DNA of 64,000 nucleotides from Aggregicoccus sp. 17bor-14 (lineage in GTDB: Bacteria > Myxococcota > Myxococcia > Myxococcales > Myxococcaceae). Below are positions 34,987 through 38,849 of the stretch, piece by piece. The stretch lies in contig NZ_VJZZ01000008.1 in the NCBI RefSeq assembly GCF_009659535.1, positions 126,001 to 190,000 on the forward strand, written 5' to 3'. How positions within the stretch are numbered: position 1 is the stretch's first letter; each line of letters begins with the position of its first letter. The notes under the pieces were generated by a model. That model did not search any database. It was not told the DNA's origin and worked only from the letters and a program-made list of their open reading frames with translations. Position numbers and translations under genes: made by a program.

Positions 34987-36015
34987 ATGGCCGATCCGCA
35001 CGACGCGGCGGCCAGCCCGCTGCGGCCCGAGCGCGAGGCGGTGCTCAAGGCGCGCATCAAGGATCTGAAGCTGCACCTGGCCGGCACCGCGCTCGAGCGC
35101 GCCATCCAGCAGCTCTACGCGGAGCTCGAGGCCCGGGGGCTCTCCTTCCGCCCCGAGTGCTACCTCTCGGACCAGTGGGGCTGCCCCTCGGGGGTGCCGG
35201 TCATCGGTATCCCCTTCTACCTCGCGGACACGCGGCTGCACTCCATCGAGCAGGAGCTGGGCGGAGACCTCGAGACCGAGCGCGAGATCATGATGTACCT
35301 GCGCCACGAGGCCGGGCACGCCTTCAACTACGCGTACAAGCTCTTCGATACCCCGGAGTGGGTGAAGCTGTTCGGCGACTACGGCAAGCCCTACTCGGAC
35401 AACTACAAGCCGCAGCCCTTCAGCCGCCGCTACGTGGTGCACATCTCCGGCTGGTACGCCCAGAAGCACCCGGACGAGGACTTCGCCGAGACCTTCGCCG
35501 TGTGGCTCACCCCGGGGCTGGACTGGGAGAAGCGCTACGCGGGCTGGGGCGCGCTCAAGAAGCTGCACTACATGGACGCGGTGGCCAAGCGCCTGGGGCG
35601 CACCCCGCCCGTGGTGCAGCTCAACGAGCGCGACCTGGACGTGGACGAGATGGAGGAGACGGTGGAGGCGCACTACCGCGAGCGCGCCCGCGAGGAGCAC
35701 GTGGAGCTGCCCTTCCGCGAGCAGCTCGACCAGGACCTCTACGGCCTCTTCGAGCCGCCGGACGGCGCCCCCGCGAGCGCCGAGCCCTTCCTGCGCGCAG
35801 AGCGCCAGGCCCTCATCCAGGCCGTCAGCCAGTACTCGGGGCTCGCGAGGCCGCTGGTGAAGGCGCTGGTGGACCACCTCATCGCGCGCGCGACCGAGCT
35901 GCGCCTCACCCTGCACCTGGACAAGACGCGCGAGTACGTCCTCAAGCTCAGCTCGCTCGTCACCGCGCTCGCGATGAACCACGTGTACACGGACCGCTTC
36001 TTCGAGACGGACTAG
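34987..36015 (+). CDS. Putative zinc metallopeptidase (Peptidase_Mx-like)
   Basis: The 342-residue protein (start at ATG 34987; an ATG at 34948 is possible) has the zincin motif HEAGH at residues 107-111, preceded by MMYLRHEAGHAFNY and followed by SGWYAQKHPDEDFAETFAVWL. The downstream Glu/Asp is a candidate third zinc ligand. It matches the putative zinc-binding metallopeptidase family with a single HExxH. No signal peptide is seen, so it may act in the cytoplasm. It is divergent from the ABC-F gene with no obvious partner. Substrate unknown. Confidence 0.8.
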   Translation: MADPHDAAASPLRPEREAVLKARIKDLKLHLAGTALERAIQQLYAELEARGLSFRPECYLSDQWGCPSGVPVIGIPFYLADTRLHSIEQELGGDLETEREIMMYLRHEAGHAFNYAYKLFDTPEWVKLFGDYGKPYSDNYKPQPFSRRYVVHISGWYAQKHPDEDFAETFAVWLTPGLDWEKRYAGWGALKKLHYMDAVAKRLGRTPPVVQLNERDLDVDEMEETVEAHYRERAREEHVELPFREQLDQDLYGLFEPPDGAPASAEPFLRAERQALIQAVSQYSGLARPLVKALVDHLIARATELRLTLHLDKTREYVLKLSSLVTALAMNHVYTDRFFETD

Positions 36016-36024
36016 CGGCAGGCC

Positions 36025-36519
36025 TCAGCGAGCTTCGGCGCTCCGGGGCACCTCCGCGCGCGTCGCGATGGCCAGGCGGTTCCAGGCGTTGATCGCCGCG
36101 ATCATGAAGAGCAACTGCACCAGCTCGTCCGGAGGGAAGTGCGCGCTCGCCTCCTGCCAGACCGCGTCCGGCACGTGGCCCTGGGTGACGAACGTGACGG
36201 CCTCCGTCAGGCCGAGCGCTGCGCGCTCGCGCGCCGTGTAGAAGGGCGCCTCGCGCCACGCGGAGAGCAAGCAGAGGCGCTGCTCGCTCTCGCCCGCCTT
36301 GCGCGCTTCGCGCCAGTGCATGTCGACGCAGAAGGCGCAGCCGTTGAGCTGGGAGGCGCGCAGCTTCACGAGCTCGCGCAGCTGCGGATCGATTTGGATG
36401 CTCTCCCCGAGCTTCAGCATCGCGGCGAGCGCGCGGCCGCCGTGGGCTGCGAGGGGCAGCCGCTGGGCAGGGGTGACGGTGACTTCGGGGACGATGGGAG
36501 TGGCAGTGTTGGGGTTCAT
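36025..36519 (-). CDS. Carboxymuconolactone decarboxylase/AhpD-family protein, ECF41 target
   Basis: The 164-residue protein has the AhpD/CMD core: Cys61-Cys64 and His68 in NGCAFCVDMHWREA, an alkylhydroperoxidase-like redox pair. The C-terminal helices contain LFMIAAINAWNRLAI. CMD-family proteins reduce peroxides or act as decarboxylases. ECF41 sigma-factor genes are typically found beside exactly this kind of gene, and the upstream ECF41-type promoter (36528-36554) supports direct control by the neighbouring sigma gene. The start ATG at 36519 is the first codon after that promoter. Confidence 0.9.
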   Translation of the reverse strand: MNPNTATPIVPEVTVTPAQRLPLAAHGGRALAAMLKLGESIQIDPQLRELVKLRASQLNGCAFCVDMHWREARKAGESEQRLCLLSAWREAPFYTARERAALGLTEAVTFVTQGHVPDAVWQEASAHFPPDELVQLLFMIAAINAWNRLAIATRAEVPRSAEAR

Positions 36520-36527
36520 GCCCAGGT

Positions 36528-36554
36528 GACGGATGAGCCCGCCCGGGCGTGACA
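36528..36554 (-). promoter_or_regulatory. ECF41-type promoter of the CMD gene
   Basis: On the minus strand TGTCACG (36548-36554) is followed after exactly 16 bases by CGTC (36528-36531). This equals the consensus reported for ECF41 sigma factors (TGTCACA-N16-CGTC) except at the last -35 base. It lies in the 43-base gap between the sigma-gene stop and the CMD start, leaving a leader of only a few bases. Confidence 0.85.
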
Positions 36555-36562
36555 GCCCGGGC

Positions 36563-37417
36563 TCACGCGAGCGGCGCCAGGCGCAGCTTCTCCGGGTTGA
36601 GCACGGCGCGCAGCGCGAGGATCTTCGTTCCGTCCGTCTCGGTGGTGAGCACGAAGCTGGCTGCACCGTCCGTGCGCCCGACGATGGCCGGCCAGCCGTT
36701 GACCTCCTCCATCCCGTAGCGCAGGCCCGCGGACTCGGGGAAGCGCTGGCTGAGCAGCTGGAAGAGCCGCGCGATGGCCTCGGCGCCGTGCACCGGCTTG
36801 CTCGCGGCGCCCCGCACCCTGCCGCCGCCGTCCGTCCACAGCGTTGCGTCCTCGGCCAGCACCTGCTTCATCCCCGTCAGGTCACCCTGGAGCGCGGCCT
36901 GGAAGAAGGCGCCGAGGATGCGCTGGTGCTGCTCGCGCGAGGGGGCGAAGCGCGGCCGGCCCTCCTGCACCCGCTGGCGCGCCCGGTGCGCGAGCTGCCG
37001 GCACGCGGCCTCCTCCTTGCCGAGGAACGTGGCCACCTCCGCGTGGCTGTAGTCGAAGATCTCGTGCAGCAGGTACGCCGCCCGCTCGTCCGGCGTGAGG
37101 CTCTCCAGCAGGACGAGGAACGCGAGCGAGATGGACGCCGTGTCCGGGGGCTCGCCCGTGTGCACCGGCTCGGGCAGCCAGGGCCCGGGGTAGTCCGCCC
37201 GGCGCACCTGGGCCGCGCGCAGCTGGTCCACGCACAGCCGGCTCACGGTGGCCGTGAGCCAGGCGTCCGGGGACTCGATGCGCGAGGTGTCCGCCCCCGT
37301 CCAGCGCAGCCACGCCTCCTGCACCGCATCCTCGGCCTCCGCCATCGAGCCGAGCATCCGGTAGGCGAGCGAGAGCAGGCGCGGGCGGTTGCGCTGGAAG
37401 GTCTCGGCGGTGGACAT
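36563..37417 (-). CDS. ECF41-family extracytoplasmic-function sigma factor with SnoaL-like C-terminal domain
   Basis: The 284-residue protein has sigma region 2 (LLSLAYRMLGSMAEAEDAVQ, a typical -10 recognition helix) and region 4 (about 100-150). Three motifs mark the ECF41 group: WLPEP at residues 80-84, DGGGR at 196-200 and NPEKL at 274-278. In this group the extra C-terminal SnoaL/NTF2-like domain (about residues 160-284) replaces an anti-sigma factor and controls activity directly. It lies between two copies of its own predicted promoter, so it is likely autoregulated. Partner: the CMD gene downstream. The signal is unknown. Confidence 0.95.
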   Translation of the reverse strand: MSTAETFQRNRPRLLSLAYRMLGSMAEAEDAVQEAWLRWTGADTSRIESPDAWLTATVSRLCVDQLRAAQVRRADYPGPWLPEPVHTGEPPDTASISLAFLVLLESLTPDERAAYLLHEIFDYSHAEVATFLGKEEAACRQLAHRARQRVQEGRPRFAPSREQHQRILGAFFQAALQGDLTGMKQVLAEDATLWTDGGGRVRGAASKPVHGAEAIARLFQLLSQRFPESAGLRYGMEEVNGWPAIVGRTDGAASFVLTTETDGTKILALRAVLNPEKLRLAPLA

Positions 37418-37468
37418 GCGGGGCTCCTCCTCGGCCAGGCTTCGCGGTGCACCCCTGGCAGAAGCGAC

Positions 37469-37495
37469 GACGGATGAGGGCCGGACTTCGTGACA
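37469..37495 (-). promoter_or_regulatory. ECF41-type promoter of the sigma-factor gene itself
   Basis: On the minus strand TGTCACG (37489-37495) is followed after exactly 16 bases by CGTC (37469-37472), with CTCATC just before the CGTC as in the CMD promoter. It lies 51 bases upstream of the sigma-factor start, which predicts positive autoregulation. Confidence 0.85.
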
Positions 37496-37519
37496 GGTCC
37501 CCCGCCCCCTGCCCTGAAG

Positions 37520-38251
37520 CTAGGCGAAGCGCACGAGGCCGGGGAGCACCTCGCCGCTCTTCCCCTGTACGAAGTGGTGGAAGGCGTGGCCGTTGTCCGC
37601 CGGGTCCGCGTTCACGAGCCAGCACTGGGCGCCCGCCTCGCGCGCGACCTCCACCAGGCCGGCCGCCGGGTACACCGCGCCGGAGGTGCCGGCGGCGAGG
37701 AACACGAGCCGCGAGCCCGGCCCCGCCTCGATGAAGCGCTGGATGCGCGCGAGGTTGCGCTCGTCGAGCGCCTCGCCGAACCAGACGATGTGCGGGCGCA
37801 GGGAGCCACCGCACGCACCGCAGCGCGGCACCTCGCCGGCGGCATAGGCCGTGCGGTCCTCGAAGGGGGCGCGGCTGCAGCCCGCGCAGCGGCTCTTGAA
37901 GAGCTCGCCGTGCAGCTCCACCACGCGCTCGCTGCCGGCGAGCCGGTGCAGCCCATCCACGTTCTGGGTGGCGAGCAGGAAGCGGTCCCCGAGCCGGCGC
38001 TCCCACTCCACCAGCGCCCGGTGCCCGGGGTTGGGCTGCACGCCCGCGGCCGCCTGACGCCGCTGTGAGTAGAAGCGCCACACCAGCGCCGGGTCGCGGC
38101 GGAAGCCCTGCGGCGAGGCCACCTCCTGCACCGGGTGGCGCTCCCAGAGGCCGTCGATGCCGCGGAACGTGGGAATTCCGCTCTCAGCGGAGACGCCGGC
38201 CCCGGTGAGCACGAGGAGCCGGGTGGAGGGGTCGATTCGCAGTGTTTCCAA
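37520..38251 (-). CDS. cobB: NAD-dependent protein deacylase (Sir2/CobB type)
   Basis: The TTG at 38251 follows GGAGA by a few bases and gives 243 residues. Hallmarks are GAGVSAESGIPTFRG, TQNVDGLH, catalytic His114 and four zinc cysteines (C122, C125, C144, C147). Tyr61 and Arg64 (YSQR) form the YxxR motif of CobB/SIRT5-like enzymes that also remove succinyl and malonyl groups. It removes acyl groups from lysines using NAD. It is divergent from the fRMsr gene (spacing 103 bases) and could share a regulatory region with it. Confidence 0.95.
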   Translation of the reverse strand: METLRIDPSTRLLVLTGAGVSAESGIPTFRGIDGLWERHPVQEVASPQGFRRDPALVWRFYSQRRQAAAGVQPNPGHRALVEWERRLGDRFLLATQNVDGLHRLAGSERVVELHGELFKSRCAGCSRAPFEDRTAYAAGEVPRCGACGGSLRPHIVWFGEALDERNLARIQRFIEAGPGSRLVFLAAGTSGAVYPAAGLVEVAREAGAQCWLVNADPADNGHAFHHFVQGKSGEVLPGLVRFA

Positions 38252-38354
38252 CGGGTCTCCGTGTCCTGCCCTGAACTGGGGTACAGTCGGCGCTCCATTC
38301 CAGCACGGCGCGCATCTGTCCGAGTGCCCCCCCGCGCCGTCGAGGTTTCACACC

Positions 38355-38849
38355 ATGGCTGAAGTCACCCTGGATCTGCGAGGCAAGCCCAAGGCCGAGG
38401 CGTACGCCGAGCTGAAGCGTCACACCGAGGCCGTGCTCGAGGGCATCGACGACGACATCGCTGGGATGTCCACGATGAGCTGCCTCCTGCACCACGCCTT
38501 CGGCCACCTGTGGACGGGCTTCTACCGGGTGGTGACGCCGGGCAAGCTGCTGCGCGTGGGGCCCTACCAGGGCACGCTGGGCTGCCTGGAGATCACCTTC
38601 GGCAAGGGCGTGTGCGGCACCTCCGCCGCCGAGGGCAAGACGCTGGTGGTGGAGGACGTGCACGCCTTCCCCGGCCACATCACCTGCGACGGCCGCTCGG
38701 CCTCGGAGATCGTGGTCCCGGTGTTCGGCAAGAACCGCGAGCTCATCGCGGTGCTCGACATCGACAGCGAGCACAAGGCCGCGTTCGACCAGGAGGACCG
38801 CCGCCACCTCGAGGAGATGATGGGCTGGTTCTCGCGCGCGAAGCGCTAG
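38355..38849 (+). CDS. msrC: Free methionine-(R)-sulfoxide reductase (GAF type)
   Basis: The 164-residue protein is a single GAF domain with three cysteines (C77, C87, C111) whose spacing of 10 and 24 residues equals that in E. coli fRMsr. The conserved stretches GPYQGTLGCLEI, GVCGTSAAEGKTLVVEDVH and FPGHITCDGRS are present. It reduces free (not protein-bound) Met-R-sulfoxide, probably with thioredoxin. ATG 38355 was chosen over upstream in-frame codons because the family starts there. Its stop is 3 bases from the convergent cmk stop. Confidence 0.95.
   Translation: MAEVTLDLRGKPKAEAYAELKRHTEAVLEGIDDDIAGMSTMSCLLHHAFGHLWTGFYRVVTPGKLLRVGPYQGTLGCLEITFGKGVCGTSAAEGKTLVVEDVHAFPGHITCDGRSASEIVVPVFGKNRELIAVLDIDSEHKAAFDQEDRRHLEEMMGWFSRAKR

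Follow-up and report, generated by a model that had tools for sequence, protein, structure and literature searches.

The window, i.e. the 64,000-nucleotide stretch of Aggregicoccus sp. 17bor-14 DNA that was analysed, contains a gene for an ECF41/SigJ-type sigma factor and, 43 nt downstream on the same strand, a gene for a carboxymuconolactone decarboxylase (CMD)/AhpD-like protein, each preceded by a predicted ECF41 promoter (Table 1). On its upstream side the sigma gene is neighboured by a Sir2-type deacylase gene, and no anti-sigma gene adjoins it. The Sir2-type gene ends 24 nt ahead of the sigma promoter, both lying on the minus strand (37520-37469), so that read-through from it could supply basal sigma factor.

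Table 1. Genes and predicted regulatory features of the sigma-CMD locus (window coordinates).
Feature	Position	Strand	Basis or remark
Sir2-type deacylase gene	38251-37520	-	upstream neighbour of sigma gene
Predicted ECF41 promoter of sigma gene, TGTCACGAAGTCCGGCCCTCATCCGTC	37469..37495	-	TGTCACG-N16-CGTC; predicted +1 at 37460
Shine-Dalgarno of sigma gene, GAGGAGGAG	37424..37432	-	sequence
ECF41/SigJ-type sigma factor gene, 284 aa	36563..37417	-	Pfam, NCBIfam, SigJ 5xe7 match
Predicted ECF41 promoter of CMD gene, TGTCACGCCCGGGCGGGCTCATCCGTC	36528..36554	-	TGTCACG-N16-CGTC; predicted +1 = 36519
Carboxymuconolactone decarboxylase/AhpD-like gene, 164 aa	36025..36519	-	Pfam CMD, NCBIfam ahpD_dom

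The sigma protein is built from a sigma2 domain, a linker reading YPGPWLPEP (GPWLPEP at residue 78), a sigma4 domain and a C-terminal SnoaL-like extension with NPEKL at its end (residue 274). The Pfam profiles Sigma70_r2 and Sigma70_r4 score 57.7 and 50 bits, both above cut-off, and SnoaL_2 reaches 23.9 bits in the extension, below its cut-off of 27. The NCBIfam SigJ profile NF007214 scores 310.5 bits (cut-off 271), and Mycobacterium tuberculosis SigJ (PDB 5xe7) matches over the full length (residues 6-283, E 3e-46). Aligned to the latter, the extension runs from about residue 153 to 284, in accord with the extension of about 100 residues by which ECF41 proteins are recognised. A single-sequence AlphaFold model with a mean pLDDT of 54.8, mostly below 50 in the C-terminal half, was set aside. 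The motif pair described for ECF41 consists of (Y)VGPWLPEP in the sigma2-sigma4 linker and a distal NPDKL (PMC7730460), of which NPEKL is a D/E variant; WLPEP is also named as an ECF41 motif by Wecke 2012 (PMC3426412). The initial annotation had taken WLPEP, DGGGR and NPEKL as marks of the group. All three are present, DGGGR at residue 196, and the sequence supports membership of the sigma factor in ECF41; a search of the text of Wecke 2012 (PMC3426412) for DGGGR gave no match.

The partner protein carries a CMD domain (74.6 bits, Pfam; ahpD_dom 62.6 bits, NCBIfam) with a complete E-x11-C-x2-C-x3-H motif at residue 49. The four residues of this motif have a role in AhpD.

As initially annotated, both promoter sites read TGTCACG-N16-CGTC exactly, with CTCATC directly before the CGTC, one site preceding the sigma gene and the other the CMD gene. 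They lie on the minus strand, at 37495-37469 and 36554-36528, respectively. The outer site ends 51 nt ahead of the sigma ATG (37417). The inner one is squeezed into the intergenic gap, beginning 8 nt past the sigma stop codon and ending 8 nt before the CMD ATG (36519). The stated near-identity to the published consensus holds as well: the ECF41 motif is given as TGTCACA-n16-CGTC, with target promoters assayed by lacZ fusions in two organisms (PMC3426412). Directly 3' of the sigma stop codon we found a perfect 8-bp inverted repeat, GCCCGGGC (36541..36562, minus strand), the 6-nt loop of which is the -35 core TGTCAC; an alternative, overlapping stem could pair 36534-36541 with 36558-36565, and the fold has a z-score of -1.9. 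None of the related loci inspected showed the repeat sequence near its promoters. A search of 35900-38400 for sigma-70 promoters and intrinsic terminators returned neither.

Within the window, the loose pattern TGTCACN{16,18}CGTC has two matches compared with 0.45 expected, and two or more were reached in 5 of 100 shuffles, so that the evidence of the window alone is only suggestive. The scan also covered the host genome (6.9 Mb, 38 contigs), as the initial annotation had suggested. The strict 27-nt pattern TGTCAC[AG]-N16-CGTC occurs there six times, four of these at two ECF41 loci. The remaining two lie opposite long ORFs and not before genes; hence we propose no further target, and a wider regulon is not adopted. 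The loose pattern gives 16 matches against 9 for a reversed-pattern control; ten of the 16 have other spacing, of which one, in L145, was inspected. A second CMD paralogue in the genome (contig C7, 44% identity) has no site within its 4.5-kb stretch.

Searches for the sigma factor in the family and in the phylum outside it scored, for each genome, no more than the 25 or 12 best candidates. Among these best-scoring candidates, at least 97 matches at E 1e-40 or better were obtained from at least 68 of 96 family genomes. The 94 loci fetched for the 95 matches outside the host genome form, together with the window and its paralogue, a set of 96 loci. Two loci (L120 and L165) each hold two sigma genes, one of which was used. 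From the phylum outside the family 20 loci were fetched, a further match (G112:C1163) being left out. Motif statistics were compiled for the 78 of the 96 family loci with a WLPEP or WLAEP linker, leaving out the 18 with neither. Here, 45 copies of the strict motif lie in zones upstream of sigma or partner genes and none elsewhere in 1.03 million strand-bases; with N15-17 spacing there are 70 occurrences in zones and six outside, and five control motifs give none in zones and 0-2 elsewhere. A zone site is present in 59 of the 78 loci, and 19 have none in their zones. The G at motif position 7 seen in the window recurs in 19 of the 45 strict sites. The hexamer CTCATC was rejected as a conserved element: besides the window sites a distant one (L064) has it, but the paralogous locus and most of the family do not. 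The base before CGTC is T in 38 of the 45 strict sites, and most family sites read TCGTC.

The second ECF41 locus of the host genome is a sister unit (G000:C3:152680-154576; L016:2681-4577). Its sigma gene (C3:153666-154514) encodes the best other match in the genome, 66% identical to the window sigma factor overall, 64% in sigma2 and 75% in sigma4. A separate site lies 35 nt ahead of the start of this gene, and convergent to it runs an NAD-dependent epimerase/NmrA-like gene that likewise has a site; these two sites share their core motif with the two of the window. A third sigma gene (G000:C7:323366-324142; L017), a long open frame, encodes a protein 41% identical over residues 12-254 and possibly belongs to another extended ECF group. 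In a tree of 88 sigma proteins, taken from 88 of 116 loci, the window and C3 proteins are sisters (support 100/99). Because their sigma4 and sigma2 domains are 75% and 64% identical, cross-recognition between the two is likely. The sister sigma factor, its epimerase-like target and the window pair probably form a cross-talking set of four promoters. The same figures, together with the identical core motif, could also mean that the sister sigma factor is the main protein at the window sites, or shares them equally with the window sigma factor, which would then not be the main activator. We consider this unlikely, as each sigma gene adjoins its own pair of sites, in the manner of cognate ECF41 pairs elsewhere (PMC3426412).

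The two sisters belong to a clade of 16 proteins (support 99/96), in which seven further members have an FAD-type oxidoreductase gene upstream and seven a membrane protein gene downstream; partners were assigned by tblastn, and the name oxidoreductase reflects a GxGxxG-like start of the protein. The membrane protein (L056, L057, L058, L059, L060, L068 and L061) has no significant match in Pfam and resembles cytochrome b558 succinate dehydrogenase subunits in part (E 4e-9, 36 bits, cut-off 96), and we refer to it as cytochrome-b-like. Four putative enzyme families, i.e. CMD, epimerase-like, FAD oxidoreductase and cytochrome-b-like, thus appear to fill the target slot of one sigma clade behind the same promoter. 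The Pfam-defined partner classes given by Wecke 2012 (PMC3426412) are CMD, oxidoreductase and epimerase, and the cytochrome-b-like target of the seven relatives falls outside them. At two loci (L098 and L100) a single sigma gene is preceded by two CMD-like genes in tandem, each of which has an ECF41 site to itself. In a Polyangium fumosum stretch a motif site falls inside a long reading frame.

This variety of partners bears on the function of the unit. The initial annotation had predicted a small autoregulated peroxide/redox switch. Its prediction of autoregulation and CMD control is retained here; the peroxide part is not, as deletion of ecf41 or the CMD gene in Bacillus licheniformis and Rhodobacter sphaeroides made no significant difference with four oxidants (PMC3426412). 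A dedicated peroxide-defence switch would be in line with the AhpD-type E-CxxC-H residues of the CMD protein, with the CxxC found in all ECF41-linked CMDs and with the slight H2O2 sensitivity of an M. tuberculosis sigJ mutant, as cited in Wecke 2012 (PMC3426412). Set against the deletion results, and against sister units that would drive epimerase-like, FAD oxidoreductase or cytochrome-b-like genes, such a dedicated role seems improbable. The varying partner genes rather argue for a wider redox or metabolic theme; no inducer of an ECF41 system was known in Wecke 2012 (PMC3426412).

The spacing of the inner site suggests that the CMD message starts in an unusual way. The start-site sequence published for Sinorhizobium meliloti RpoE9 extends to the 9th base after CGTC; we took this last printed base as +1, following another entry, in which the start is given in lower case as the last letter. 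In the S. meliloti pSymB record the CMD ATG lies 32 nt after CGTC, which leaves a leader of about 23-24 nt. The same 9-base offset follows from the RACE leaders of 22/23 nt in Wecke 2012 as compared with 31/32 in Table 5 of that paper (PMC3426412). The offset stems from alphaproteobacteria and a Firmicute and may differ in the host; applied to the inner site, which continues acctgggcATG after its CGTC, it places +1 on 36519, i.e. on the A of the CMD ATG. As the two coincide, the CMD mRNA should be leaderless. This ATG is the first ATG, GTG or TTG downstream of the inner promoter; no SD-like tetramer was found before it, and the next in-frame start, M34, lies within the region that aligns to solved relatives. 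By the same rule the sigma message would start at 37460 and carry a leader of about 43 nt with its Shine-Dalgarno sequence.

The short spacing is not confined to the window. Among loci whose start was recognised by our script, the ATG lies 8-9 nt after CGTC in ten target genes, three of them for CMD proteins (window, L130, L148) and seven for cytochrome-b-like proteins. In the tree these ten come from three distinct regions; L130, however, forms a long branch, and its CMD frame breaks after 70 codons. In addition, the distance from CGTC to the start is 9-12 nt for three sigma genes. An SD-like tetramer precedes one of the 13 starts at 12 nt or less from CGTC compared with 66 of 69 with longer leaders, a difference that is partly geometric, since at the short distances part of the stretch searched is CGTC itself. 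Six cytochrome-b loci have their promoter close against the sigma gene, either within its 3' end, abutting it or no more than 8 nt downstream, and at three of these the target ATG overlaps the sigma stop codon. Across the 96 genomes as a whole there is no excess of motifs followed by N8-9 and ATG (17 matches compared with 18 for an N12-13 control); at ECF41 loci, however, lie ten of those 17 compared with three of the 18. Among 14 sampled plasmid loci of other phyla (of 406 plasmid records with a match), none has a site 8-9 nt from an ATG; when the motif is relaxed to [CT]GT[CT], eight have a site close to a gene, and the annotated or ATG starts then lie 21-66 nt from it. A link between ECF41 and leaderless mRNA was not found in the literature searched, nor in the passages covered from the S. 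meliloti start-site map (PMC3616915), a paper in which both terms occur.

The CMD gene might instead be expressed mainly by read-through from the sigma promoter as part of a two-gene operon, the inner site being weak or vestigial. The common strand, the gap of 43 nt and the failure to find an intrinsic terminator between the genes are compatible with such an operon, as is the report that a promoter before the COE gene occurs in only 24 of 53 >ECF> >COE> loci (PMC3426412). The inner site, however, is a perfect strict match, the same inner placement recurs in the six cytochrome-b loci of like layout, the CMD start has no Shine-Dalgarno sequence and a GC-rich hairpin follows the sigma stop codon, which together make read-through as the main route quite unlikely. 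An origin of the sites by chance, as matches to a short motif in GC-rich DNA, for which the 5 of 100 window shuffles could be cited, is refuted by positional conservation across family and genome, above all by the count of 45 sites in zones to none elsewhere: the window sites are not due to chance.

Promoter activity at the two sites, autoregulation and control of the CMD gene are predictions that the comparisons support. We consider it probable, with good confidence, that the locus encodes an ECF41 one-component switch which regulates its own gene and drives the CMD gene via a leaderless start, alongside a sister unit. In published work ECF41 sigma factors have no obvious anti-sigma factor and are inhibited by their extension, partial truncation of which raised target activity about 20-fold and about 120-fold in two organisms (PMC3426412); the window sigma factor is composed likewise. 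In the proposed mechanism, the SnoaL-like C-terminal domain would restrain the sigma factor by way of NPEKL acting on the WLPEP linker, until a signal, probably a small molecule or ligand of the SnoaL-like domain, reshapes this domain and releases the sigma factor. The released protein would guide RNA polymerase to TGTCAC[AG]-N16-CGTC sites. The site before the sigma gene would provide positive feedback, and the site in the sigma-CMD gap would start transcription on the A of the ATG, yielding a leaderless CMD mRNA to be translated without a Shine-Dalgarno sequence. The sister sigma factor (66%), with its epimerase-like target and the same promoters, would extend the switch to the cross-talking four-promoter set.

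Beyond the window, we put forward, with our confidence evenly divided, that ECF41 sigma factors of the myxobacterial lineage deliver their targets on leaderless mRNA. The promoter, often lying within the sigma gene's 3' end or abutting it, would be fixed such that the transcript starts with the AUG; the slot behind it could then be refilled with unrelated redox genes (CMD, cytochrome-b-like) that need no ribosome-binding site, and the output would be tied to conditions that favour leaderless messages. If the leaderless start is true, one sigma group would be tied to a mode of translation in a conserved manner. Although ECF41 sigma factors are widespread, no inducing condition was known in Wecke 2012 (PMC3426412). 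The window and its relatives offer a clean promoter set, with four sites in one genome and two sister sigma factors, and the presence of four target enzyme families behind a common promoter within a single sigma clade narrows the possible signal.

The closest known systems are the ECF41 units of B. licheniformis (ecf41Bli, ydfG), R. sphaeroides (RSP_0606, ecf41Rsp) and S. meliloti (SMb20029, rpoE9), with which the window unit shares a sigma factor with a regulatory extension and no anti-sigma factor, a CMD partner with CxxC and a TGTCACA-N16-CGTC-type promoter before the CMD gene. In those units a 22-24 nt leader that includes a ribosome-binding site precedes the CMD coding sequence, whereas here the CMD start coincides with the predicted +1. 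Moreover, the CMD gene comes first in the S. meliloti operon, whereas here the sigma gene comes first and has its own promoter. The likeness to M. tuberculosis SigJ (5xe7) is that of a full-length match in sequence comparison (E 3e-46). In gene order and in a motif before both genes the unit agrees with the >ECF> >COE> class in Table 4 of Wecke 2012, in which about 20% of 53 loci have both promoters; the text of that paper, as far as searched, holds no discussion of the start-codon spacing of this class (PMC3426412). In S. meliloti, 171 leaderless mRNAs have been reported (PMC3616915), which begin at AUG as predicted here; in our case the spacing is a feature of the target promoter of a sigma factor. 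Both the motif and the gene arrangement are hence already published (PMC3426412), and the window unit is a member of this known ECF41 kind, to which the predicted leaderless layout would be the new element.
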